This document shows, piece after piece, positions 593 through 63,786 of a stretch of 64,000 nt of DNA. The position numbers were made by a program, and so were the translations under genes. The notes under the pieces were generated by a model. The model was not told the origin of the DNA, did no database searches, and saw only the letters and a program-made list of their open reading frames with translations. Source of the stretch: Pocillopora verrucosa (lineage: Eukaryota > Cnidaria > Anthozoa > Scleractinia > Pocilloporidae). Positions within the stretch are counted from its first letter, which is position 1. Each line of letters begins with the position of its first letter. The DNA is taken from positions 18,234,317 through 18,298,316 of the forward strand of contig NC_089312.1 of the NCBI RefSeq assembly GCF_036669915.1. Reading direction: 5' to 3'.

Positions 593-3411
593 GGGCATCT
601 ATCAATCAAGCTGACAAATATGGCCGCACCCCTCTGCACGTGGCAGCCGCGGTGGACTATCCTGAGATGGTCCACTTCCTGGTGCAGCGAGGCGCAGACA
701 TTCATGCTAAGACAGGCAAAGAACTACAGACACCCATACACTTTGCTGCACGCAACGATGCAACTTCCTCACTAAAGATGTTGATGAAATGTGGCGCTTG
801 TATAACCGATAAGGATTTCAAACAGAGAACCGCTCTGCAGGTCTGCACTAATGACTGGAGACAATTTTCAATGTTGATCCGTTTTTGTAGAAAAAAAAAA
901 TGTATATCGGTTGGTGGGTGCGCTATTATTGACACAATCTCACAAAGTTCGTGTCAAAAGTCAACATCAGTTGGTGCACCACCTACACTTTGATGTTCAC
1001 CGCAAGACGTCATGAGATTGTTACTTACTCTGGCAAACACAATGATAGGTTGGGAGATCTCATTCGCAAAGTGAGAATGAGAAAATAGTGGGAAGGGGAG
1101 AAAAGAAAAAAGAAATCTAGAGGAAATGCAAGGGGAAGGAAGGGGAGGGCTAAAATGTGTACCAACTGATTATGTCTGAAAGTTGCATTTTTGATGCGCA
1201 TCAGGAGAGTGGGTTTTATAAAAAATAATGTAAGAAAAAGATAAAAAGATTTTTTTCCACTGCGTTTTCAAGAATGAGTTCTTCGAATTTAACTGGCCAT
1301 CCACTTTCTCGTTAGGTCGCTGCCGAATTGGATCGCTCGGAAACAGCGAAATGTTTGGTAGAACGCTCAGCGGAGGCTAATGTGGCTGATGACAGCGGCA
1401 TGACAGCACTTGTCATGATGATCAGCAAGATGCCCAGTGTGGTAGGTGGTAACTGAACAAAACTGAACCAACTTTATCACTATGTATGATCAGAAAAAAA
1501 AAGAGAATGGTAAGTGGACCCATGTGATCTCAAAGTGAATATATGTAAGCTGCCACAAGAGCGGGAAAAATGCAAATGACCAAGCCACAATTGATTTTAG
1601 ATTTCGCATCTGGTTGGTTGAGAGGGTGTCGCAACTTTTCTGGACCGGGCATAGAGGATAGTGGAGCAGAAGGAATAAAATATCGTAGTAATTTCGACAC
1701 TCAATTAAAAATTGCATTTCCATGTAACTCGAGCGTGTTACCGTGAAGAGAGGGTAATACGATTCGACACAGTGTGTGAGTGTGTTTGTGTGTGTGTGTG
1801 TGAGAGAGAGGTGTCGGAGATAATGGTTTTATCCTTTCGGCCAAGGGCAACTCACTGAGACAATGATTGTTTTCTGTTGAATATTTTGACCCTAATTAAT
1901 TTGTTTGTGTATTTCTCGCGCAGGCTAAAGAAGCACTAAATCAGTTTTACTCCACCGATCGAGCAAATAGAAAACAATATTTCTATTTAAACTACCTTGA
2001 GCCCCCAGTACCGACTTGCATGAGCAGCGGATGTGCCAGGACAGCACTTGAAGTCATTGTGCAACTCAAGCAGTTTGATTTGATTATGCATCCAGTGATA
2101 CAGAGGCTTATCAAGGTGAAGTGGAATTATTTTGGAAAGCGAGGAGCCTGGATTCAAGTCGTAGTAAACCTGTTTTTCGTGTTAGTCTGGACTGTGCTTG
2201 GCATCACCACACCAAGTAGGGCTGGTGAACTTTATGAACCAATCAAGGAGAAGTGGTGGAGGATTACGCTGAGTATCATAGGGGTACTGATGACCTTGAA
2301 TTTCATCAGACAAGAAGTCATGGAATATTTCTCATCGAAAAGAGAACATAGACTTTGGGTGAAGTGGCGGGAAGATAAGTTGAGAGGAGATTTGGAGTTC
2401 TGTCATCCGAGATGGCCTGGTGAAAGGTTATATTTGATGCAAGAAATTGACTCGTTGCATCATCAGGAACCAGCTTATTTCAGAGATGCCTGGAATTTTG
2501 TCGACTGGCTGGCATACTTCATGATCCTTGCCTCCATAGCGACGAATCTAATCGCTTATCTCTATGGCAACACATGGGCTCTGATAGTGCACGTGAACAT
2601 TTCATCTGCAACTCTTGTGATTTTGTGGATTCGTCTCATGAAGTATGCGCGTGCGTTCACTTCGTTGGGACCCTTTGTTGTCATGCTCGGTCACGTGATC
2701 AATGACATACTCAAATTTGGATTTCTATTCTTCACGTTTTACATACCATACGCTGCCTCGTTTTGGATGGTTTTCAGTGGACATCAAGTGGAGGGTTATT
2801 CCGACATTACCGATCTTCTCTACAGCATGTTCAGGATGACTGTTGTGGACGAGTACAATTACGATGGACTCGAGCAAGTTAAGCCTATTATGGCTAAAGT
2901 TCTTTGTGGTACATACATTGCAATCTCAGGAGTGATTTGTCTGAATCTCTTTATCGCTTTGATGTCTGACACTTTTCAAAGAGTGTATGACAATGTCAAG
3001 GCAAACGCTGTTATGCAGCAAGCCACTACTATTCTGACTTTGGAGAAAAGCCTTTCCGCTTCAAAGCGGCGCGCTTTCACGAACTTCATCTACACGAGAT
3101 GCAACCCTGAGGAGCTTTACTATGACGACGACTTGTCTGAGGGGGAAGAAAAAGATCTACAAAGAATGACGCACCAAATAAAGGAGCAGGTCGATCATAT
3201 CTACGCGCATATAGCTGAACAAGACAGTGATAGAAAAAAGAAAGGAACCGCATCCACGAACGATGTACATAAGTTGCGGGAAGATTTAAAAAAACTAGAG
3301 CAACAGCACAGAGCCCTGACAGCGCAGTTTCACAATCAGATCGGTGAAGTCAAAGATATGTTGGGTGACATTATCCATACTCTAGGCAAACGAAAGAAAA
3401 AGAAACACTGA
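593..3411 (+). CDS. Ankyrin-repeat TRP-type cation channel, 5' partial
   Basis: Three exons are visible: 593-840, 1316-1441 and 1924-3411, all with AG/GT borders and an open joined frame (about 620 residues plus stop). The gene starts upstream of the window, because the first visible exon opens inside a codon within an ankyrin repeat. Exons 1-2 encode ankyrin repeats (GRTPLHVAA, QTPIHFAA). Exon 3 encodes the channel: a pre-S1 helix (MHPVIQRLIKVKW), six hydrophobic segments, a pore loop with VDEYNYDGLE before S6 (CLNLFIALMSDTFQRVYD), and a charged C-terminal coiled coil ending in a lysine-rich tail. By family knowledge this is a plasma-membrane, non-selective cation channel of the TRP superfamily; the TRPA/TRPV/TRPN class cannot be fixed by eye. 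It faces a minus-strand paralog 1.55 kb downstream. A possible AATAAA signal lies near 3822. Confidence 0.85.
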
Positions 3412-4965: not shown

Positions 4966-7900
4966 TCAGTCAGTTTTGTCTAATGCTTTGTCTGCCTCGC
5001 TCTCTTCACACGGAGGTAAATTTGGGGGTGAAATCGGTGCCAATATTCCTCTTAGTCGAGCCACATACTCGTCTCTCGCGGCTTGACCAGACATATTGAT
5101 TGATCTTTTTCTCTGCTTCTCAGCCATTGCATTTCCAGTGGCACTTTCTAAGTCAGTTTTGTTCGCCTCACTATCCTCTGTAGGCGGGGCTAAATCTGGG
5201 GATGGAATAGGTGCCAATGGTTCCTTGAGTCGAGCCACATACTCGTCCCTTGCGGCTTGACCTGACATAATGACTGATTTTTTTTTCTGCTTTTCAGCTA
5301 TCGCGTTTCCATTAGCACTTTCCAAGTCAGTTTTTTCTAATCCTTTGTTTGCCTCACCATCCTCTGTACGCGGAGTTAAATCTGAGGGTGGAATCGGTGC
5401 CAATGCTCCCTTTAGTCGAGCCACGTACTCGTCTCTCGCGGCTTGACCCGACATAATGACTGATTTTTTTTTCTGCTTCTCAGCTATGGTATCTCCATTA
5501 GCACTAACCAGGTCAGAGACAGTTTCCACATCGAGTGCGCTTTTCCCTAGAGACGTTCCTGCCACTTTGACCACTTCTCTGTCGCCATCAATCATTTGGA
5601 ATGGTTTCGGGGTGGTCGCTCTGGATTTAGGTCGTGCACTGGTTTTTCTTCCTTTGGGTTTCTCCTTGATTTTGTCGTCCTCCATACTTACTACAAACGC
5701 CTCCAGGTGTTCTACTCTAGCCATGAGATTCTCTTCATACTGCTTGATATGTGATTCGTGTTCATCGCACTTGGAGTTAATTGCCATGAGTTCTGTCTGT
5801 AGCTGGTCAAATCTTGCGCCTAAGTTGCCCTCTAGCACACTGTTTCTCAGGTTGGCCTCAGCTTCCACAGTTTCGAATCCAGAGTCGATGCCTCTGGAAA
5901 GACTCTCAACCTTGTACTCCATGTTAGTGTTCACGTTGGTAACTTCGGTGTTAACATCACTAATCGCCGAGATCTGTTTTTTCCCGTGTTGCATCAATTT
6001 AGCAATTTCTTCATAGATTAAGGCATTGAGGCTTCCAAGCTCATCCAAACGAAGATGAAGGTGATCAACAGATTTCTGCATTTCATTCTGAGAGCGTTTC
6101 AAGGAGTCGACATCTTCCAGCACTGTGTCAAACTCGCTCTTTCGTACTTTTCCAAACTTCTTCCCTCCCAGACGATCGCTAACAATGGTATGGACTAAGG
6201 CGATTTTCTCTACTTGTTTCCTGTTTTGTTCTTCTTCGTCAGATATGATTACCAAGAAGTCGTTCCCCTCTGGGCTGCATCTGTTACGGATATGATCCCT
6301 GTATCGCTCCACTCTACGTTCGGAGGCAGACGATTCAAGATCTTGCAGAAGGCGCGCGCGCTGCATTGCAGCTGTCGCGCGTGCGTTGTCATAAACACGT
6401 TGAAACGTGTTCGACAGTAACGCAATGTACAAGTTCATTAATACGATGGCAGCGAGAATGAGGAAAGAACCACAGAGTATGCGCGACATGACCGGGTACT
6501 CTTTTTCCAGGTCGTCGAAGTTGTAGTTATCCACAAGTGGGAAGCGGATGATAGTGAAGGCTAAGTGTCCCACGTTGTCGTATCCTTTCACAGGCTCACG
6601 CATGGATCCCGGGCCAAACAACATCCAAAAAGCTGCTGCGTAAGGGATGTAAAACATGGCTATGACAAAGCCCCATCTGATTGTGTCCAATAGGATGTTG
6701 TCCAGGATGACTACAAAAGGTCCCTGACTTGGAAAGGGTCTAGCAAACTTCAGCAGGCGGACCCAAATGATGATAATCGTGCAGGCATGTATCCGGGTGA
6801 AATATCCATTATACTGATTGTTTTCGACGACGACATTGATGATGTGAAGTATGATCACAATGATCAGCATTAGATACGCCACCCAATCCAAATAATTCCA
6901 CTTGTCTTGGAAGTACGTCTTCTTTCGGTGTTTGATCTGTTTCACATGTTGTTTGATAAAGTTTTTTTCTTGCGTCCATCGAGGATGACAATATTGCAAA
7001 TCGCGTTTAACTTCTTTCTTCCTCCAGCTTATGAACTTTGTATTTTCTCGTTTAGACTGGTAAAACTCTTTTATCTCTTTTCTGATTTCGTTGAACGTTA
7101 AAAGCACGACGGCAGCCTCCAGGGGAATCTTCCACGCATTTTTGCTGAGTGGGTAATAATAATCAGCCACGTCGGTAGGATGCGTCACCCCGAGCACAGT
7201 GTAGGCCACAGCAAGCAGGACGTTCAGAAAGATCCCCAGCCAAGCCCCAAGACCAAAGAATCCCCATTTGACTTCAATTAGTCTTTGGAAAATCGGATGC
7301 ATAATAAGCTCGAAGCAGTTTACTTCCACGACTGCTTGCAAGGGTGAGAGGTTGACTGGTTGACGTTTGGTATCTGGGTCGCATTGTTCCAAGAAGTTGA
7401 GATAATATCGTTGCTTGCGATGAGATCTGTCTGTGACGTGGAACTGATCCAAGGCTCGAAGCGCCTGATATTAGGAAGAAAAAAAAAGTTTAAGAATAAC
7501 GAAGTATACTGCCTGTGTGATAAGTATTTGTTCCACGCACTGAACGCCAGCAAGGTCCAGCTGTGTCAAGTGGTTCCAATTCACCATCGTTGAGTTTTCT
7601 GACCTTTTCCACTGTAAGTAACTGAAATTTTTCTTCTCTAAGCAACGGGGATACATTTTGTTGGTGGCTTTTCACTTCTTTACTCATGCAATAGCCTTAT
7701 ACTATTTAATACTTGTACGGGGAATGTATCACCTCTGAGAGCGTAACCTTATGCCTTTCAAAGGCATCAAAGTTGTGCAATCGCGGTGCTTAAGCGTTGA
7801 AATGAAATGGTGCCTGAATTTAAAGAAAAAAAAAGGGTTTAGGAGTAAACAGATTAGATTAGTTAAGCCATAGCGAGCTGCGTTTCATTAGCACTCAAAG

Positions 7901-15195: not shown

Positions 15196-15771
15196 TCAAA
15201 TCATCAATGTCGAGCACAGAGGGCAGAGCCGTAGTTGTGACTTTAAACACGCTTGAAAACACGTCTGGTGCAATAAATGGCCACATCTCAACACCTGGCA
15301 AGGAACAGGAGAGGTGTGTAGGCCCTCCATGCAAATCGGACAGTCTGCTCTCGAGCTCTGCTCGATGCAGACGTGAGATCTCTTTATACTGTTTGGATAG
15401 CACATATCACACCTTAAACAGTGGAAAAAGTTTTCTTGGCCTCCGACGCGACAAACTCCACAAAGATCGCAGTGAAACTGGCCCTTATCCCGGTCGTCAT
15501 AGAGACGGCAAGTTTCACAAAAGTAAAATCCGAACTTGATTCCACATTCTGTACAATGTGAGACCACAGCTTGCAGTTTATCACACTGATTGCACTTGAT
15601 CTGTTGAATACTCTTCCTCTCTAGTTCATGGGTTTTCTCAGCATTGTCATGACAAAAGCGGCAGGGGTAAATCTTTCCACAACACGGTGCCAGGAAAGAA
15701 CATTTCCTTACATAATGCTCGCAACCCGCCATCTTGTTTATTTTTAAATGTATCCAGATCACCTCGTCCAT
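15196..15771 (-). CDS. RCHY1: RCHY1/Pirh2-like RING and CHY zinc-finger E3 ligase, intronless
   Basis: An uninterrupted 191-codon ORF. A second in-frame Met at 15732 (MAGCEHY) aligns better with the start of the family and is the likely initiator, giving 178 aa. Zinc-ligand order follows RCHY1: the CHY finger (GCEHY, PCRFCHD, CDKL), the CTCHY block (CDLCGVCRVG, FFHCLRCDMCY, HVC) and a C-terminal RING (CPICMEGL, CGHLLHQTCF, CPLC). In vertebrates RCHY1 ubiquitinates p53 and other substrates. The protein stops right after the last RING cysteine pair, whereas the human protein (~261 aa) continues with a C-terminal zinc ribbon, so this copy is truncated. No intron interrupts it, although the vertebrate gene is multi-exon; a retrocopy or lineage paralog is possible. 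A polyadenylation signal follows at 15101-15106. Confidence 0.85.
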   Translation of the reverse strand: MDEVIWIHLKINKMAGCEHYVRKCSFLAPCCGKIYPCRFCHDNAEKTHELERKSIQQIKCNQCDKLQAVVSHCTECGIKFGFYFCETCRLYDDRDKGQFHCDLCGVCRVGGQENFFHCLRCDMCYPNSIKRSHVCIEQSSRADCPICMEGLHTSPVPCQVLRCGHLLHQTCFQACLKSQLRLCPLCSTLMI

Positions 15772-18246: not shown

Positions 18247-18319
18247 CTTGTATTTTGGATAGCCTGGTTACTGAGGCTGAGCAAGGCTTGGTTACAGAGG
18301 ATAAGCTTGATTTTCAAAG
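18247..18319. promoter_or_regulatory. Bidirectional promoter between FBXO22 and UBOX5
   Basis: Only 73 bp separate the two divergent start codons, so transcription start sites and core promoter elements must lie in or across this interval. The left edge carries CCGCCATCTTG, the reverse complement of a YY1-like AAGATGGCGG element overlapping the FBXO22 ATG. No TATA box is evident. Confidence 0.7.
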
Positions 18320-21300
18320 ATGCACGTCAATTTTCTCCATCCATTTTTTAAGCCCATAGCTGACTGTGATGTAGTTAGCTCCGATGGATACACTGTCCAA
18401 AACCTCATAAGCCCAGATTTAAGAGAAAATTCACGAGGATTTTTGGCTGCTCATTTTATCAAGCCTCCAACTCTGTTACTCTTTCAACTTCCATTTCCAG
18501 TTCACGTAGAATCAATGATCATCAAACCCAAAGTTGGATCTCAAATTTCATCTGGTATAGCTGTTTTGGTGGCGGGAATCGCAACAAAAAACGATCCTCA
18601 CGTGAATGGTGACATAACCAGCCATAAATCAACAGTGTCTTCTAAAATACAAAGAATTAACAACGGCCTCCTTTTGAGCTCATATAAAAGAAAAAATTGT
18701 CAGCGAAGTACAGCCGAAACTTGTCAGAAACAATCACCCAAAGAAGTTGTCACCCATCACCATAGTTATGAATTAAATGTAACCCCTACATCTGTGAAAG
18801 GTGAGCATTCACAGTTTTTTACACAAGTTGCTTGGCTTAATGACAGTGAAGGTAGAACATTTCATATGGAAAACAAATTGTTTCAAGAAAGGTTTCCTGT
18901 TCAAGGGATACACCCAGTAGGAAGATCAGATATTCAGCAAGGAGCATTTCAGCGATTATCCTTCCTTAGAAAGGTTACTCATGTAGCATTGAAGATTGCA
19001 CGATTAAGTGGCTCAAGTGTACCAGCTATTGGCAAAGTTGAAATTTGGGGACAACCATCTGCTTGTTGCCAGCCAGGAGTTTTAGAATATGCCTTACAAG
19101 TCCAGGAAAAAATTCAAGCAGGCATACATAATAAGACTGCTACCACTGTGGATGAACACATAATGAAGCCAGATTCTAAACATTGTAGATCAATCATTGC
19201 TACAAATTGTAATAGTAACCCCATTCCAGATGACTTCATTGACCCGATTACATGTGAAATCATGACAGTGCCTTTGTTACTCCCATCTGGTCACAATATA
19301 GACTCAGTTACACTTGAAAAGCACATTACGGCAGAGAGAACCTGGGGACGATTACCATCTGACCCATTTACTGGAAAATTATTCTCAGAATTTTCCAAGC
19401 CACTACCAAATAGTCTACTTAAAGTAAGGATTGACAAGTTCCTTCTGTCATCAGGACTAAATAATTCTGTTCTTGGGAGAACAGTTGGAAGTGAGACTGT
19501 GTCACTTCGAGAAAATAATCAAACTAAAAGTAAATTACTGAAAGCAAATAAGGGACCTTCAGAAGACAGTCATGCAAAAGCCCCTTCTGGTAGCAGTGAA
19601 GTCAGAGGTTCTCATCTTGAATTACCTTTATTTGGTGCAAGATATCAGCAAAGGGTTCCAAATAACTGTGAGCACAAGTCAGAACAAAAAGGTACTTCCT
19701 TCATGAACCTCTTCAAAATTGATTTACTGCGTCATTTGGTTTTTTCTTTCTCTAAATTTTGTTTGATGTTGGCTTGAGCGATTTGTGTCTTATAAAATAC
19801 ATTAAAAAATTTATTCATTCTCATTGGCAAAAAGGAATGCAATTTGAAGGTAGCACAATGTAGAAGAAAGTTAATACAGGGCAAAAGGTGGTAAAAACTG
19901 TTTAGCTGGGCTTTGAATTTTTTTGCTGCCAAAAAAGTTATAAAAAAGGGAGAAAATATTTGTTTTGATTGAATATGGTTTTTATTGAATGCATAGTGAA
20001 ATTTGTAGGGTTTGAATAATTTATATTTGCATGTGATTTGAGTGCTTTGCTTCTGTATAATTTTGAAAAGCTATGTACAATTTTTTTTTCATGTATATTA
20101 TCAAGAAGGAATCACATGATTTTTTTCATTGTAATATAATTTGGTATAAATCACAGTAAGCACAGAGTGCACGTACCCTGAACAGGTGCAGCTAGTGGTG
20201 TTACCTTTGGAACTTTTTCATGGTTGTTTATTCTAAATTCACTCAAAATCATGCATTTACTTACTAGTTAATAATTTTTTCTCTTCGTCTTAGCTTTCTG
20301 CTTGCTTTGAAGAGCAATGAGACTACAAGGATAAATTGTAGTTTGGTCACTTTGGGAGTGATAGGGTTGAATCATGGGGTGGTTGTTATTATTCTTTCAA
20401 TTTTTTTTTGTCATCTAGTAGCTATATGTTGGCCTATCAAAAAGGAGTGGTTTGTATGAGAAACTATTTTTTTTATGCAAGATCTTGAACTACCTTGTTT
20501 AAGTGTAAAATTATCTCTTATTTCAACCTTTTAACTCCTAAGGGTGACTAGCATGATGAGAAGAAGAAAGAAAATGATCACCAACTAAAGAAACTCCTTG
20601 ACGTTAAACAAATTCTCTGGGTCAGCACTTTAGGAAATGTAAAGAAAAAAGTATGGAGGATATGAATACTGGCATTGAGTGTAAAGGGATAAAAACAACT
20701 GAAGATAAAATTACAAAAAGGATTGTTTTTTTCTCCTCTTTGTTTGGTAGAAGTGGAACTTGGACATGAGGAGGCAGTTACTAGAAGTCTTGATTCAGCT
20801 GTTAATCTGACACTCCAAGGACTTCACAAGTTTACAAGAAATAGACCAGTCAATCATGAAACACAAACAGTAACACGACCTCTTACTGAAGAAACAGGCA
20901 AAGGTATCATGCTTTGGCAAGCTGTTTGTTTGGACATTGTGAATCAAATTTGAAATGTTAATTTGACTGAAAATACAAAACGATGATAATTTGATAAAAC
21001 ATTACATTAGGAAAGATGGTATTTTTTGACAAAGAAATGAGACAAAAATTTTCTCACAAGTGTGGAACAAATGTTTTTCATTTTCTTTTATCAATGTCTG
21101 AGCTTAGAATTTATCATCCTCTTCAAAATTTAGTCAGGATGCAGAACCCTTATCACCAGTGTACCAAGTTTGTGGCCTAATTACAATGAGTGGCCAAAGT
21201 AATCGGTCCATCTCCCCTTAGTAGGTAGTTGACAACATTACATTCAACTCAAATAAACACAAATCTTTTAAATGAAATCTTAAATCTGTAATAAGTTACT

Positions 21301-32300: not shown

Positions 32301-34297
32301 GTTGCGTGCATAGAACACTTAATTAACTAGTCTTAAAAAAACGTCTAGGGGCATAAAAAATTAATATTAATTCACTTCTACGTTTTTTCCATTTTTTTGG
32401 CAAGAAGACAACTAAAATTTTGAAAAAAAGCTATTAAGCTTCTTTGAAGTAGAAGCACAGACAAACTCGTTCACTATGTTGTACGCCGCAGAACATGATG
32501 AAAACTTGACCCAGAGACGTGCACAGGGAGAATGTGAATGTTTTTCAAATTACGAACGGCGCCATAGGAAAGATACTGCGTGCTTGGAATGAATAAACTA
32601 TAGTCTTTTTTGTGATGACCTGCAGGAACTATTAACGACTCCTGGTAATTATGTTGCAAGACAGAACAAACAATTATCACGCAATAAGTAGCGAGTAAAC
32701 TGTTATTTTCGCCAACTGCCCCGAGGTGGTGGGTGGTCCAAAATGACAATTTCAGTAGTAATAAGACAAGGGACTTTTTCTCCCATTCTGCGACGAAATG
32801 TCGTTTGTGAAATCTCGGTAGCACTTTTTATAAATAGGTCATCAGCGTAGAGAGTTTTTAATTACGGTCCGATATCTGTCATAGTGTTCTAAACCTAATT
32901 GGCTTTTATTTGTGTCTAAATCTGACCACCATAACATGGACTTGCCAAGCGGCAATTCAAAAAATGGCCACATGCAATAATAAAAATAATAGTTATTATA
33001 AGGATTTTAGTTAAGAAGGCTACACGCAAGTATAATTGACTTATGCTTGGGAACTTTGATTTACAGTGGCATGTTTTGCAATTAATGACCACTTGAAACA
33101 GACCTCCACCTAAGCAATATCAACACATCGAGTTTAGTTTTCATTTACAAAATGAAATTTATATCTTTTGACCGATGAACTGGTAGGAGTTTCTTGTTTA
33201 GACTACAAGTGCACCAAACCCCAGGTGGGGTTCTTTTGTGCTTGAGCCATGTTTTGACAATTTACTTTCTAGATTAAATCTAAGATAATAAAACGCTTTT
33301 GTTAGTAAGCAATTAGCGAAGCTATTGTGTCATCCAGGTCAGTTTGTGCAGACTGTTATTACAAAAGCATCTTTGAAACGCAGTTTCTTCAGCCATAAAG
33401 CTAAAGCCTATCAAGCTAAGCCGATAGAACAAATTGAGAAAAAAGCTGCTTTCTTTCCTTGGATAGGGAATACACGGACCGTGCTGTCTCAATTAACGAG
33501 ACTTTCGTGCTGATCGGTTTATAAGATGTTAGACTGAATCCCAGATAACATATCTTTACTGCAATCGAGGTTAAACGGAGCTACTTTTTTCCTCTTTCCG
33601 GTTCGAATGTTAGTTTTAGAAAGGTAAGTTGTAATATCATTTGCTAAATTTGCCATGTAATGCCACTATTATATGCTATAGGCTAGGCAATCTGCCATTC
33701 TCAGACCGTATGATTAGCAATTACCATCGTCACCCACTCGTTAACAATACTACTTGGACGGTCGGAGACACTGTGAACAGAGACCCACTAGCTTTTCTGA
33801 GCACAAAAGCTCAGCGAAGGCCGCAGTTAGCGGATCTAGACACAAGAATCAAACAAATCCCTGTATACAAATGTTAAGCTATAGAACGCCAGCGGAGCGT
33901 GGTCTTACTTTGTCCGTGGGTAAATGAAGTTGACATTAAACTTCATTAATGCAAGTCTTCTGTAAACAAGCATAAAGATTTCCAAATTCAATCCAAGTCT
34001 AATGGTTGCCACATAAGGTTTATTTGCTTCCAACCTGATGGCTCTCAGCCAAAATAACTCCAAACTGTCTAGTTATCAAACTTTGCGCGGGGGTTATGTT
34101 TGAAGTCTGCAAAAGTAGTGGGGGGCCTTTTGGTTGTTGAGATTTATGTTAAGTAAGACAACGCGTGCTTGATACACTGAAGATAACACGTGCCTCACTT
34201 TGTTGTTTTCTTTTTAGCTCTTCAGGTCAGCAGTTTCATCTACGAGTCATTCTAATGCGTAGATAGCAAACACGCGAAGGTTCCCGTACCTGACACA

Positions 34298-37200
34298 ATG
34301 TTTTCCAGAGTTGTTTGGAGTTTGTTTGTCCTGTCATTAACATTTTGGGTCGTTGCCTCCAACGAATTGAGCCGGACAAGCAGCAAATGTCCAAGAGAGT
34401 GCGAATGTACCACAACGAGCCAATTCTTCATGTCCTGTGGTTCCAAAGGAAGTTTGACAACTATTCCGTCCTCTATACCTCTCAAAGTAGAATTCTTGTC
34501 AATTTACAGGAACACGGTTACAGAGATACCGGAGAGTGCTTTAAGAAATTTGACAAATTTGATGACCTTGAATTTACGGTCGAACAAATTGCGTGATTTT
34601 CCAGCGACGGTGTTTCGTGACTTGATTCGACTCAAATCTTTCAACGCCGGTTTCAACAAGCTGTCGTCACTACCAAGGCTCCTTTTTCACGGATTAAGAG
34701 ACCTCCAACAGATCTATCTTGATAATAACGCCATTGAGAGCATTCCCGAGGAATTGTTTCAAGATCTACCGTCCTTGAGGCAATTAGATCTCCACTGTAA
34801 TAAACTCAAGAAGTTTCCGGGAAACGCTTTTCAAGGATCGTTCTCTTTACAAGTTCTGTCACTGGCAAATAACCACTTAACAAGCATTAACGAAGGAACA
34901 TTTCATTCCCAGACCACACTTAAGACGCTTACAATCGGAGACAACAGAATCGTGAACATATCGAAAAACGCATTTACAGATCTCAGAGAGCTAAAAACGC
35001 TGCAACTTCAAAACAATAACATATCTTCAATTCCAGAAGGAGCTTTCAGTGGATTAAAAAGAGGTATAGATGTTTATCTTAACGGTAATCCGTTTCATTG
35101 CAGCTGCGAATTGCGTTGGTTAAAAGTCTGGTTGAGATTCAAGGCAAAATATATCCCCTCAACTGCTCTCCGTGCAACGTGTTCAAAGCCAGATCATTTA
35201 AAGGGAACGTCAGTTATGCGCGTATCAAATGACCATTACAACTGCGTAAATGGTCAGTGGACAAATTGGAGCCCCTGGAGTGCCTGTAATAGTACTTGCG
35301 GAGCCGGTGTACGAGCCTCGACAAGAAGCTGTACAAATCCTCCACCAGGGAGAGGTGGAAAGAATTGCAAAGGGAGATATATAAAGACAAAGAGCTGTAA
35401 AGGTCAAGCCTGTGAAGCTAGCTGGACGGCCTGGTCAGAATGGAGTCCATGTAGCAAATCTTGTTCAACAGGAATGAAAAGAAAGACTCGTTCTTGTCGA
35501 CACTCTCGCAAAGGGTTGATTAGAAACACCTGTAATGGGCCTTCACAAGAAACACGCAGTTGTACAAGAGGGCCATGCAGAGGTAAGGGCGAATGGAGTC
35601 CATGGTCCTCTTGTAGTGTAACGTGTTCTTGGGGTACTAGAATGAGAATGAGAACGTGTAAGGACTCGCAAGCTAAAAATCCTGGACAACCATGCTTTGG
35701 AGCAGAAATTTCCACAGAAATGTGTTATTTAGGCTTCTGCCCAGTTCATGGTGATTGGTCAGTTTGGTCCAGTTGGTCAAGCTGTAATGCATCATGTTCA
35801 GGGGGAATAAGGACAAGATTCAGAACATGTACCAACCCTCTTCCTCAGTATGGTGGAAAAATATGTGATGGAGATTCGGCCCAAAAACAGTATTGCAATA
35901 CAGAGCCATGTGCTATCCATGGAGAATGGACTGCTTGGTCAAACTGGTCCCACTGTTCAGTGACATGTGCAAGGGGCTCTCAGATGAGGTTTAGGACTTG
36001 CAGTGACCCAAAACCTCAACATGGAGGCCACAACTGCTCTGGTAATTCCTCTGATATTAAGTATTGTGACCTTGGTTCATGTCCTATCCATGGAGGATGG
36101 ACTGCTTGGTCAAACTGGTCCCACTGTTCAGTGACATGTTCAAGGGGCTCTCAGATGAGGTTTAGGACTTGCAGTGACCCAAAACCTCAACATGGAGGCC
36201 ACAACTGCTCTGGTAATTCCTCTGATCTTAAGTATTGTGACCTTGGTCCATGTCCTATCCATGGAAGATGGACTGCTTGGTCAAACTGGTCCCATTGTTC
36301 GGTGACATGTTCAAGGGGCTCTCAGATGAGGTTCAGGACTTGCAGTGACCCAAAACCTCAACATGGAGGCCACAACTGCTCTGGTAATTCCTCTGATCTT
36401 AAGTACTGTGACCTTGGTCCATGTCCTATCCATGGAGGATGGACAACCTGGTCATCATGGAGTGACTGCAGCAAAACATGTGCAAATGGCACAAGAATTC
36501 GCAACAGAACTTGTAGTAATCCCTTTCCACAATTCTGGGGAAGAAATTGCTCTGGTGAGGTATTAGAAATCACATCATGTACCAAAGCACCTTGTCCCAT
36601 TCCTGGTAAATGGGCAGCTTGGTCACATTGGACTAAGTGTAGCAAAAGCTGCTCCACTGGTACAAAGTCTAGGGTACGAACTTGCAACAACCCTGCCCCC
36701 AAGAATGGAGGTCAAGCCTGTAATGGAAACACTATTCAGACTGAGAATTGCCAAGAAATACCATGCCCTATTCATGGAGGGTGGAGTAAATGGTCAAAGT
36801 GGACTGGTTGCAGTAAGACCTGTGGTAACAGTACAAAGTCACGCAATAGAACATGCAGCAATCCCCCTGCACGACATGGAGGGAACAATTGTCCTGGTAA
36901 TTCTAGCCAAACTGAATATTGTAGTCAGCATGCCTGTTTTTTACACAGAGAATGGTCAGAATGGTCAATTTGGACAAGCTGTAGTAAATCCTGTGATATT
37001 GGACACCAGACAAGGACACGGCAGTGCAAGAATTCAAGCCATGAAGCTGTTGAAAGAGAAAACATTGTTTCCTGCAGAGGAAACCAGACTGAAATGAGGA
37101 CCTGCTTGCAAGGACTTTGTTCCAATCAAAGCATATCAAATGAATGGTCAAACTGGACTCAATGTTCAGTCAGTTGTGGATTGGGAAAGCAACATAGATT

Positions 37201-38827
37201 CAGGAATTGTAGTGGAAATGGAGGCATGGGTGATGAAGGTTGCCAAGGTTCAGAGCTGCAGGTGAAAACTTGTTTTGAGAATGAGTGCCCGGTGAATGGT
37301 GGATGGAATGTGTGGTCTAATTGGACTGCATGTTCCTCATCTTGTGGTACTGGAGGCCAGGTGAGATTTAGATTTTGCACCAACCCCAAACCAGAGGCTG
37401 GAGGTGATGGCTGTCATGGTGAAAATGTCATGTACAAAAGCTGCTTTATCAAGCCATGTGATAAAAATGATTCTTTTTGGTCTTCTTGGACAAGTTGGTC
37501 CCAGTGTTCCACAACTTGCTCTAAGGGACATCAGACCCGATTGAGGTACTGCAGAAGGAGAAGTCCCTTTCATCTTGGAAACTGTGCAGATGCCAATGAT
37601 GGACCTATCCAAGTGGAAAGCAACATCTGTGAAGTGAAACCCTGTGCAGTATGGAGTAGCTGGTCACCATGGGAAGCTTGCAGCCAGACATGCGGTGGTG
37701 GCACAAGAAAGAGAAATAGAAAATGCAACAGCATAGATAGTGACATGATTTGTGAAGGAAATAATTCACAAGCTGTAAGCTGCAAGCCAGATCCATGTCC
37801 AACATTTCGTCCAATAACATATCCTGCAAAAATTACTCTAGGAACACCAAGTCTATGCCCTGATCCTGAAAAACCTCAAAATGGTTATTTCAAGAAAATT
37901 GAACAATATGGATCTCACTATGTCACATATCATTGTAAGCAACATTATTTCGTCCATGGACCAAGACTACGGCATTGTGAAAATGATGGTTTGTGGTCTG
38001 ATGATGTTCCTTTCTGCCTTCCCATATGTGGAGAGTCCAGGTTCAGCCATGACAATACACATCATTCCCGTTTAAGGATATTTGGAGGTGGCACAGCCAT
38101 GCCTGGTCAGTGGCCATGGCAAGTAGCTTTGATTGTTGATGAACATTTTCACTGTGGTGGATCTCTTGTGGCAGAAAACTGGGTTGTAACAGCTGCTCAT
38201 TGTGTATATGACAGACAAACAAGAAAGCTTTATTCCAGTATCAAAATTCATCTTGGAGTTCATGATATTACTTATGCACTAGGAGATCCACATGTCCAAA
38301 GTACAGACAGCATAGAAATAGTGCCCCACCCAAACTTCAACTGGACAACCTTTGACTCAGATTTAGCACTGATAAAACTTAGAAGGAGAGCAAATATGAC
38401 TGATCATGTACGTCCAGTGTGTTTACCCAGCAAGCAGCAAAGGCGCGGTGTAACTCCTGGTACAATGGGTGTAATGTTAGGGTGGGGAGTCACAGAAATA
38501 GGAAAAAACACAACTGAATTACAACAAGTTGACATGCCAGTTGTCTCTAATAAAAACTGTCGAAGGGCTTATTTGAGTGAGACTTGGCTTGTTACATCTA
38601 ATATGCTCTGTGCAGGGTATTCTAGTAACCATAAAGATTCTTGCAAAAGAGACAGTGGGGGAGGGTTTCTATTTCGAGATACAAAAGGTAAAAAGAAGAA
38701 ATGGTTTCTGGGAGGAATAATTAGCTGGGGTAATCCTAAATGTGGAATTCCTGGTAAATATAGTGTTTTTACTCATATTAATGGCAGATTTACAAGATGG
38801 ATTAAGGATCATATATTTTATAGTTAA
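34298..38827 (+). CDS. Secreted LRR - 15xTSP1 - sushi - trypsin-like mosaic protease
   Basis: A single 1509-codon ORF without introns. Order: signal peptide (residues 1-~21); LRR N-cap (CPRECEC) with about eight leucine-rich repeats to ~265; LRR C-cap (NPFHCSCELRW); 15 thrombospondin type-1 repeats (~318-1170) with WxxW and CSxTC/CSKSC motifs; one sushi/CCP module (~1188-1245); and a chymotrypsin-fold protease to the end. The activation site is R|IFGGG (Ile at 1261). The triad is complete: His1301 in TAAHC, Asp1355 in SDLAL, Ser1453 in RDSGG. Asp1447 at the S1-pocket position predicts cleavage after Arg/Lys. Arg1451 replaces oxyanion-hole Gly193. The protein is extracellular with many N-glycosylation and C-mannosylation sites. 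Complement-like, matrix or immune roles are possible but unproven. I know no orthologue with this order, so no symbol is given. Confidence 0.92.
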   Translation: MFSRVVWSLFVLSLTFWVVASNELSRTSSKCPRECECTTTSQFFMSCGSKGSLTTIPSSIPLKVEFLSIYRNTVTEIPESALRNLTNLMTLNLRSNKLRDFPATVFRDLIRLKSFNAGFNKLSSLPRLLFHGLRDLQQIYLDNNAIESIPEELFQDLPSLRQLDLHCNKLKKFPGNAFQGSFSLQVLSLANNHLTSINEGTFHSQTTLKTLTIGDNRIVNISKNAFTDLRELKTLQLQNNNISSIPEGAFSGLKRGIDVYLNGNPFHCSCELRWLKVWLRFKAKYIPSTALRATCSKPDHLKGTSVMRVSNDHYNCVNGQWTNWSPWSACNSTCGAGVRASTRSCTNPPPGRGGKNCKGRYIKTKSCKGQACEASWTAWSEWSPCSKSCSTGMKRKTRSCRHSRKGLIRNTCNGPSQETRSCTRGPCRGKGEWSPWSSCSVTCSWGTRMRMRTCKDSQAKNPGQPCFGAEISTEMCYLGFCPVHGDWSVWSSWSSCNASCSGGIRTRFRTCTNPLPQYGGKICDGDSAQKQYCNTEPCAIHGEWTAWSNWSHCSVTCARGSQMRFRTCSDPKPQHGGHNCSGNSSDIKYCDLGSCPIHGGWTAWSNWSHCSVTCSRGSQMRFRTCSDPKPQHGGHNCSGNSSDLKYCDLGPCPIHGRWTAWSNWSHCSVTCSRGSQMRFRTCSDPKPQHGGHNCSGNSSDLKYCDLGPCPIHGGWTTWSSWSDCSKTCANGTRIRNRTCSNPFPQFWGRNCSGEVLEITSCTKAPCPIPGKWAAWSHWTKCSKSCSTGTKSRVRTCNNPAPKNGGQACNGNTIQTENCQEIPCPIHGGWSKWSKWTGCSKTCGNSTKSRNRTCSNPPARHGGNNCPGNSSQTEYCSQHACFLHREWSEWSIWTSCSKSCDIGHQTRTRQCKNSSHEAVERENIVSCRGNQTEMRTCLQGLCSNQSISNEWSNWTQCSVSCGLGKQHRFRNCSGNGGMGDEGCQGSELQVKTCFENECPVNGGWNVWSNWTACSSSCGTGGQVRFRFCTNPKPEAGGDGCHGENVMYKSCFIKPCDKNDSFWSSWTSWSQCSTTCSKGHQTRLRYCRRRSPFHLGNCADANDGPIQVESNICEVKPCAVWSSWSPWEACSQTCGGGTRKRNRKCNSIDSDMICEGNNSQAVSCKPDPCPTFRPITYPAKITLGTPSLCPDPEKPQNGYFKKIEQYGSHYVTYHCKQHYFVHGPRLRHCENDGLWSDDVPFCLPICGESRFSHDNTHHSRLRIFGGGTAMPGQWPWQVALIVDEHFHCGGSLVAENWVVTAAHCVYDRQTRKLYSSIKIHLGVHDITYALGDPHVQSTDSIEIVPHPNFNWTTFDSDLALIKLRRRANMTDHVRPVCLPSKQQRRGVTPGTMGVMLGWGVTEIGKNTTELQQVDMPVVSNKNCRRAYLSETWLVTSNMLCAGYSSNHKDSCKRDSGGGFLFRDTKGKKKKWFLGGIISWGNPKCGIPGKYSVFTHINGRFTRWIKDHIFYS
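35921..36433 (+). repeat. Three nearly identical 171-bp TSP1-coding units
   Basis: Units at 35921-36091, 36092-36262 and 36263-36433 encode TSP1 repeats 5-7. By direct comparison units 1 and 2 differ at about four bases, and units 2 and 3 at about five, mostly silent. The flanking TSP1 repeats are far more diverged. Confidence 0.93.
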
Positions 38828-40448
38828 AATATCTTTAACCCTTTAACTCCCAGAGGTGATTAACATGTGACCTCTCCCTATAATATCCATAAATTATCCA
38901 GCAGGCAGGTAATAAGAATAGTCAAACCTATCAGGTTAAAGTTGTTATCTTGATCTAACACCAAATTCTTGCAGCTATTTTACAAGGAAATTTGTTGCAG
39001 CTAGAGGAGAGCGTTAACAATCAGATCATTGGGAGTAAAAGGGTTAAAAAGCTAAAGGTCCAACTTTCTCTTTTAGTGTTTATGTTGTTAATGATATATC
39101 TGCTACACATTCATAAAATACCATGTATATTTTACTGCTGAAAGAAGCATGGCTTTTGAAGCATTTAGTTTTTCATTAAGAAATTGATAGACATTGTCAT
39201 CAGATGTTCATTGAAAAGAGAAACATTTTGTATCAAATTTTAGATTTTCACAAATTGGTATATATAGTTTACACAATTAGTATCATTATTACAATTTATT
39301 TACTTCAATTTCCTATATATCTATAATTATAGTATTTTTATACAACATATGAATATTCCTGAAAATTGAATCATTGATTCAAACACAATCCAGGATTTTG
39401 GAAAAGTTAAAGTTAGAGTGAATTTTTACCAATGACATAACAAGGCACTTATTAGGAATGTTCGTATAACACTGGTTTGATATGATTTAATATTATAGTA
39501 ATGTATATTAAAATTATAAATTATACTAATAGCATATAATAACTGTATATATTAAAAAAATTCAAAACATTTTTGTAACGTATACACCATAAAGATATAA
39601 TTTAGCAAAAATGGCCAAATTTCACGCCAACATCATTGACATGAATTTTTTTACATCCATTAAAATCTGTAAAGCTCTGTCATTTTTCATTCTTTATAAC
39701 CTTCATTAGAGATATTTCCATCTGATGTGTCGTACTATAGCTTTCCAGTTTAGCGCAAAGAAATATAAACCAGTATTGCCCCCCTAAGAAATATAAATCA
39801 ATTTGAAAGAAAGTATTTTCTTTAAACAATTTTTGGTGGCTGAGTCTTTTTCTGTAGGTGAATTAATCGCAAGTGGTAAACCTTAATGATTTATCACTGA
39901 CTCAAAGATATTTTAAAGGGCAGTGTTTGCCCCTACCCCCCTGTCTACATAGCTTTTGCACATAAAAAGAGGTCCTTTTCAGGACCCTTACAGAAACCCA
40001 GATAAAAGAAAAACTGATCAATTATCATATCAACGCGCTTGGAAAATTAATAAAATTTTTGCGTTGAATTTATTCAAATTTATTCAAGATTTGCGACAGA
40101 CTTGTATCGTCCTGTATTCAAAAAATTGTGTTTTGTATAACTTGTAATGATGTACGTTACTCTTATATAAATAAAAAAAAATAAGTAGATTTTTAACCTA
40201 CCTATTTTATGAATATTCCCGTACCTTCCTGGTTGATCATGAAGAACTGTTGAGACTGAAGACGCCAGCGATAATTCAAAGCTTTTGAACAGAGGCATGA
40301 TTGATTTGCCCATGCGCCTGTTTATTTTCAACTCTCTATCTCTCTCTCAATGGCGACTATAATACTCTGTTCTGTTATGATATTATTTGGCCAACAATAA
40401 CAGATTGATTGTTGTATTTGGTTATTTCCAGTGCTAGGAGCCGTTTCC
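38828..40448. other. Intergenic, MITE plus AT-rich sequence
   Basis: Begins with a complete MITE eight bases after the protease stop codon. The rest is very AT-rich (about 39040-39600) with no exon-like ORF, ending in the NRBF2 upstream region. Confidence 0.5.
38835..39047 (+). mobile_element. Complete TTAA-flanked MITE, 213 bp (piggyBac-type)
   Basis: Starts TTAACCCTTTAACTCCC and ends GGGAGTAAAAGGGTTAA. TTAA at both outer edges followed by CCC/GGG termini is the signature of piggyBac-class insertion. The interior closely matches the reverse complement of the element at 57728-57939. It sits immediately after the protease gene's stop codon, so it probably forms part of that 3' UTR. Confidence 0.85.
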
Positions 40449-48363: not shown

Positions 48364-48574
48364 TTAACCCTTTCACTCCCATGAGTGACCAAGACAGAAT
48401 TTCTCCTTACAATATCAATACACTATCAACCAGACAAGAGATATGAATAAAGAAAAATATCAATTTGGGGATAATTAGTTGATCGAACACTAAGTTCTCT
48501 AAACTAATATTATAAGAATTGTATGATTGACAGTAAGGAGAATTACAAATTTGATCTGGGAGTTAAAGGGTTAA
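48364..48574 (+). mobile_element. Complete TTAA-flanked MITE, 211 bp (piggyBac-type)
   Basis: Begins TTAACCCTTTCACTCCC and ends GGGAGTTAAAGGGTTAA. The interior, with GTGACCAAGACAGAATTTCT and CCTTACAATATCAATAC, matches the element at 60931-61143 and the fragment at 41456-41514. It has no coding capacity, so it is non-autonomous. Confidence 0.88.

Positions 48575-51900: not shown

Positions 51901-63786
<11,886 letters not shown>

Follow-up and report, generated by a model that had tools for sequence, protein, structure and literature searches.

The window, as we call the whole 64-kb stretch of DNA that was analyzed, carries on its plus strand a coding sequence (34298-38827) that encodes 1509 amino acids plus a stop codon in one frame. 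The ORF starts with an ATG, an in-frame stop lies 45 bases upstream at 34253, and at the stop-codon frequency of the window, 1523 codons in a row would stay open by chance with a probability of about 10^-39; in a whole-genome search, the coding sequence was matched at 100% at C1:18268614-18273140. A sequence-only reading of this DNA had described a 4.5-kb uninterrupted ORF with LRRs, 15 TSP1 repeats, a sushi module, and a protease domain, and both the count and the order of these parts agree with the ORF list and with Pfam (Table 1); the signal peptide and the LRR caps that it also named are borne out by eye only.

Table 1. Features of the mosaic gene (positions in the window; residue numbers of the encoded protein)
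Feature	Position	Strand	Basis or remark
Candidate 5'UTR intron	33624..34225	+	Donor AAAG/GTAAGT; acceptor 34225, alternative 34217
Putative signal peptide	34298..34360	+	About 21 residues, by eye from translation
LRR block, N-cap, about 8-9 LRRs, C-cap	34388..35245	+	Residues 31-316; count and caps by eye
15 TSP1 repeats	35258..37810	+	Residues 321-1171; Pfam, motifs
Tandem triplication of TSP1 repeats 5-7	35927..36439	+	Unit of 171 bp; in-exon
Sushi/CCP module	37856..38017	+	Residues 1187-1240; PF00084
Predicted activation site Arg1260-Ile1261	38075..38080	+	RLR/IFGG; motif, MASP-2 alignment
Trypsin-family protease domain	38078..38824	+	Residues 1261-1509; PF00089
Catalytic His57 (H1301)	38198..38200	+	Motif offset
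Catalytic Asp102 (D1355)	38360..38362	+	Motif offset
Asp189	38636..38638	+	Predicts cleavage after Arg/Lys
Arg at position 193, usually Gly	38648..38650	+	Motif, alignment
Catalytic Ser195 (S1453), codon AGT	38654..38656	+	Motif offset
Tyr225-Ser226	38759..38764	+	Alignment; most other rows have Gly at 226

Pfam analysis of the whole protein at E 0.001 matched LRR_8 to four stretches (6.3e-38) and TSP_1 to 15 (8.7e-160); CUB, EGF, and ShK were not among the families reported at this threshold, and neither was Sushi. Scanned alone, the LRR stretch gave LRR_8 at 2.6e-41, with LRRCT_2 under its cut-off (19.9 versus 23.8 bits), and the sushi stretch gave PF00084 at 4.4e-07, its 30.6 bits exceeding the cut-off of 20.7. 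The PDB sequences nearest to the LRR block were LGR5, ALS, LRRC15, LGR4, LRRTM, and the variable lymphocyte receptors; this range of relatives is that of animal LRR proteins in general and names no ligand. For the TSP1 array, the top PDB match was properdin (1.9e-71, the best of 41), and the WxxW and CxxS/TC sequences, which we take to be C-mannosylation and O-fucosylation motifs, are kept in all 15 repeats. Repeats 5 to 7 share pairwise DNA identities of 0.977, 0.959, and 0.971 (96% for the tandem in TRF), which points to a recent triplication inside the exon. The array most likely grows by in-frame duplication of the 171-bp unit inside a giant exon, and the gene is an example of TSP1 array growth within one exon and not by exon shuffling.

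Splice sites were scored with a generic position matrix. Upstream of the ORF, the donor at 33624 ranked 4th of the 3578 GTs in the window, and the acceptor at 34225 ranked 2nd of the 3951 AGs, with the alternative at 34217 ranking 23rd. A noncoding first exon followed by a 5'UTR intron is therefore likely, and the gene is most likely composed of this exon and one giant coding exon; its earlier description as intronless holds for the coding part and, given the strong donor and acceptor, probably fails for the 5'UTR. It is very improbable that the ORF does not stand for one protein, whether by read-through between neighboring genes, through hidden introns, or as an assembly artefact. Donor-like sites inside the ORF at 37361 (7.4) and 35583 (7.2) nearly match the score of the 5'UTR donor (7.8); however, the acceptors inside the ORF are weak, the best of them scoring 4.7 compared to 9.8 for the acceptor at 34225. 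Also in favor of one protein, the frame is uninterrupted and has a single start, with no stop at the join between LRR and TSP1 segments, and the ORF sits within a 36.6-Mb contig.

The absence of introns from the coding part had been taken to suggest retroposition of an assembled gene or intron loss. A retrogene would have arisen from an assembled multi-exon parent copied via RNA, would have lost every coding intron in that one step, and would have gained its 5'UTR intron later; this is a question of origin, compatible with every function proposed below, and we rate its chances as a little short of even. The LRR block, the 15 TSP1 repeats, the CCP, and the protease are all free of introns, which favors this origin, as does the state of other trypsin-family loci. 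In the closest relative of the protease that was found (L017), frames follow in the order CCP, Ig, and protease, and the protease domain is split over two of them; its identity to the window's protease is 46% over 207 aligned positions, with weak support (0.67) in a 17-row tree; of the 16 rows beside the window, several represent one and the same stretch or are near-identical copies. The trypsin-domain search of the genome gave at least 158 matches, and by eye a full-length domain in one frame (profile 1-9 to 220) was seen in 20 of the 158 listed, including the window's, while most of the others hold part of the domain per frame. In Nematostella, 70 of 72 trypsin domains are encoded by several exons, and the excerpted text of the same study ascribes the two intronless genes of the 72 probably to retrotransposition (PMC6767649).

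Against a retrogene, open frames with several TSP1 repeats occur at other loci. Elsewhere in the genome such frames carry 4 to 14 repeats, with 14 in one frame at L002, six at L004, four each at L005 and L006, and four and two at L039; acceptor-like sites precede the arrays of L002 and L004 (by eye). There is mostly one repeat per open frame at L021, L029-L031, L034, L035, L037, and L038. Because frames with several repeats exist, retroposition does not follow from the array by itself, and its standing as the necessary cause of the missing introns was downgraded. Unbroken LRR frames of about 1000 amino acids were also found at several places in the genome, and, taken together, the one-frame cases of multiple TSP1 repeats, LRRs, and trypsin domains make the lack of introns less odd than first thought. 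The strong splice pair in the 5'UTR likewise counts against a retrogene, and no A-run of 10 or more was found between the stop codon and 41000, an interval in which a MITE-like element lies. Furthermore, no second LRR+TSP1+protease locus, and so no intron-containing parent of that composition, was found among 45 matches in the coral's own 353-Mb genome (31 of 826 candidates scored). A TSP1 gene on C9 (L011, L029-L033) was considered as the intron-containing parent and rejected, since no LRR, CCP, or protease was found in its five stretches; its repeats mix with those of the window in a rough tree, which is built from short sequences, does not place the window's own 15 repeats in one group, and is not evidence of kinship. 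At L002/L003 (C13:6589142-6594559), the frame with 14 repeats stops where a retroelement reverse-transcriptase frame begins, and this array looks interrupted by an insertion.

The C-terminal part of the protein matches the whole of the trypsin profile (PF00089, positions 1-220, at residues 1261-1502; 1.2e-55). For the CCP and protease tail, the top PDB sequence was MASP-2 (3.9e-54, the best of 576), in an alignment that spans the C-terminal part of the CCP, the activation site, and the protease. Asp194 is retained together with the catalytic triad, Asp189, and an Ile16-type activation terminus, and by eye the cysteines for the usual disulfides are present, including one that would tie the cut chains together. 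The His-loop cysteine is also present (TAAHC, compared to TAAHA in MASP-2). The intact His/Asp/Ser triad claimed for this domain is thus there; as a picture of the active site, however, the claim is incomplete, because Gly193 is replaced by Arg.

The motif around the catalytic Ser reads DSCKRDSGGG, and a second exchange places Ser at position 226 instead of Gly. In an alignment of 24 rows including the window, five rows end short of position 193 and 19 frames reach it: Arg was found in the window, Gly in 16, and no conserved motif in two degenerate rows (L014 and L015); some of the rows with Gly193 are the same stretch, and two of them lack Ser195. Among the aligned rows outside the window, Ser226 occurs only in L018, which also lacks Ser195. 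A pattern for Arg or Ser at position 193 hit 36 places genome-wide, and one of these, the window's own, lies inside the trypsin matches listed (coordinates compared by eye).

Mesotrypsin, to which this exchange invites comparison, is a trypsin isoform without extra domains. The human protein (PRSS3) has Arg193 in common with the coral protein (PMC5413004, in the text available), which does not imply close kinship. Where almost all of its relatives have Gly, mesotrypsin carries Arg193, and it is an active enzyme that both resists and cleaves canonical inhibitors, as the available portions of two reports describe (PMC5413004, PMC11170211). Gly193 is otherwise highly conserved, and its amide belongs to the oxyanion hole (PMC3123349, PMC11170211); bulky residues at this position may lower inhibitor sensitivity and substrate interaction alike, according to the excerpted text of one of these sources (PMC3123349). 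Either inhibitor resistance or weaker activity is therefore possible. By analogy with mesotrypsin, Arg193 appears compatible with protease activity; Arg193 and Ser226 may nevertheless weaken catalysis. We consider it very unlikely that they go so far as to disable the enzyme despite its triad, leaving an impaired or dead protease that serves as a binding scaffold. The conservation of Gly193 and the effects reported for bulky residues would suit such a scaffold, as would the loss of Ser195 from two other protease frames in this genome, one of them with Ser226; however, mesotrypsin is active with Arg193, and the coral protein retains its triad together with Asp189, Asp194, and the activation site, none of which a dead enzyme would have to preserve. 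The two frames, L018 (C10:14.44M) and L019 (C1:17.81M), are of the trypsin family, have Gly in place of Ser195, and are probably inactive.

The protein looks unusual, combining well-known parts in a new way. The claim that no described family has the order LRR, TSP1, sushi, trypsin stands uncontradicted in the literature searched, and no description of an LRR+TSP1+trypsin protein was found in that literature, part of which was available as excerpts. A candidate second LRR-TSP1 gene on C14 (L016; query 210-378) was rejected; its LRRs are followed by EGF-like modules instead, and beyond these come frames that resemble FN3 and transmembrane segments (all three by eye). In a plasmid collection of 176 records, none had one place that covered 80% of the query, prokaryote genome contigs gave six pattern matches and no relative, and viral contigs gave no match.

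Among known systems, the MASP, C1r, and C1s proteases have the order CUB-EGF-CUB-CCP-CCP-SP. They and the coral protein alike have a CCP directly before an S1 trypsin-type zymogen domain, with MASP-2 the nearest by sequence; however, the coral protein has one CCP and not two, no CUB or EGF domain was called in it, and it differs from MASP-2 in the His-loop cysteine, in Arg193, and in the LRR and TSP1 segments placed in front. It lacks the CUB-EGF-CUB-CCP-CCP order and lies outside the MASP family. The Ser195 codon of lamprey MASP-A and MASP-B is AGY, as it is here (PMC6015906, excerpted text). Properdin and the TSR-only (properdin-like) proteins of cnidarians share tandem TSP1 repeats with the coral protein, which in the case of properdin carry WxxW and CxxS/TC motifs, but properdin consists of TSP1 repeats only, whereas the 15 repeats of the coral protein have LRRs ahead of them and a CCP and protease behind. 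Cnidarian TSR-trypsin proteins also place TSP1 repeats before a C-terminal trypsin domain: Ap_Trypsin-like has two ShK domains, four TSRs, and trypsin, and an Acropora digitifera form is without ShK (PMC5446238). The coral protein differs from these in its 15 TSP1 repeats, its LRRs, and its CCP, with no ShK called; the terms LRR, leucine, sushi, and CCP do not occur in the available main text of that source, Figure 2 aside (PMC5446238). Sushi is among the six commonest domains of the Nematostella trypsin set, so that sushi and trypsin are combined in other cnidarian proteins as they are here, and LRRs go unmentioned in the excerpts of that study (PMC6767649). Anthozoans are reported to have both MASP and factor B (PMC4840205, in the part available); therefore, complement-type partners exist in such animals.

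The proposal that recognition and protease are united in one chain fits the anatomy, in view of the MASP-2 and properdin matches, the activation site, and Asp189; its functional side is read from the sequence. We see about an even chance that the protein, secreted as a mosaic zymogen, acts as a one-chain recognition protease, like a MASP to which the recognition part has been fused. In such a molecule, the LRR block would bind a surface or a partner, the properdin-like TSP1 array would form a long glycosylated arm for binding or for clustering the molecule, and the CCP would present the protease as it does in MASP, C1r, and C1s. Clustering, or an upstream trypsin-like enzyme, would lead to a cut after Arg1260, and a Cys1-Cys122-type disulfide (cysteines located by eye) should then tether the active protease to the arm, which would confine its action to the sites where the LRR/TSP1 part has bound. 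Arg193 would probably narrow the range of substrates and blunt canonical (Kunitz-type) inhibitors, as in mesotrypsin, and the active site is possibly inhibitor resistant or weakened.

It counts against the recognition-protease reading that LRR blocks are often structural or protein binding and not microbe binding. Furthermore, the likeness to MASP-2 concerns the CCP and protease only, and among PDB sequences the CCP alone is closer to complement receptors and factor H than to the MASPs. The retention of the His-loop cysteine and the possible weakening of catalysis, with the one other Ser226 row devoid of Ser195, point the same way. The main rival, which we hold to be somewhat unlikely, is a secreted protease of the matrix, gland, or nematocyst type that remodels matrix or acts on prey and has no part in immunity; the TSP1 array would then be an adhesive or fibrous component, and the LRR block would be a structural binding domain. 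TSR proteins, including "properdin-likes," are thought likely to be bioadhesive or fibrous (PMC12549020, excerpted text), Nematostella trypsins with varied extra domains have been studied as gland-cell products (PMC6767649), and a third source, in its available text, treats the ShK-trypsin proteins it discusses as likely nematocyst components (PMC5446238). However, no ShK domain was called by Pfam in the coral protein, and the CCP adjoining the protease, together with the likeness to MASP-2 and properdin, suggests the type of a regulated cascade.

A stronger form of the recognition-protease reading, which we regard as distinctly unlikely, would make the protein the representative of a new class of self-sufficient enzymes of innate recognition: an LRR pattern receptor, a properdin-like TSP1 arm, and a MASP-like CCP-protease would be fused into a single secreted polypeptide, whose mesotrypsin-like Arg193 would let it evade or destroy inhibitors, and which would start a cascade locally with no need of a lectin and a protease as distinct partners. 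Lampreys divide such tasks between two kinds of molecule, LRR-based antibodies and MASPs; if the new-class reading is true, the roles of a lamprey-type LRR antibody and a MASP would be united in one chain. Complement-type systems keep recognition (by lectins, C1q, or antibodies) apart from the signal-carrying proteases, and a single chain with both would be another way to build a complement-type trigger, in an early-branching animal. Corals and their relatives would gain a defined candidate for a sensor of microbes or symbionts outside cells, and the exchange at position 193 would yield a clear biochemical prediction, namely, inhibitor resistance.

Directly 3' of the ORF stop codon, at 38834-39048, lies the MITE-like element, whose terminal inverted repeats (TTTAACCCTTTAACTCCCA) are 19 nt long. 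Its 14-nt end motif (two or fewer mismatches) has 12 matches in the window, compared to 0.48 expected; at 48368-48570 and 57731-57935, paired motif ends only are present. Neither the Rfam scan nor the tRNA scan gave a hit in the window. Near its start, ion-channel frames (Ion_trans/PKD_channel) lie on opposite strands at 1900-3408 (+) and 4969-7470 (-), with ankyrin-like frames close by (by eye), and a 186-bp tandem repeat in three copies occupies 4968-5516. Further frames encode a CHY/RING zinc finger (15199-15771, minus strand) and a U-box with a DUF5918 domain (18311-19774, plus strand). At 53465-58830 on the plus strand, a gene for the second subunit of RNA polymerase has its Rpb2 domains 1, 2, and 5 in separate frames, and this split structure contrasts with the one-exon mosaic gene upstream.
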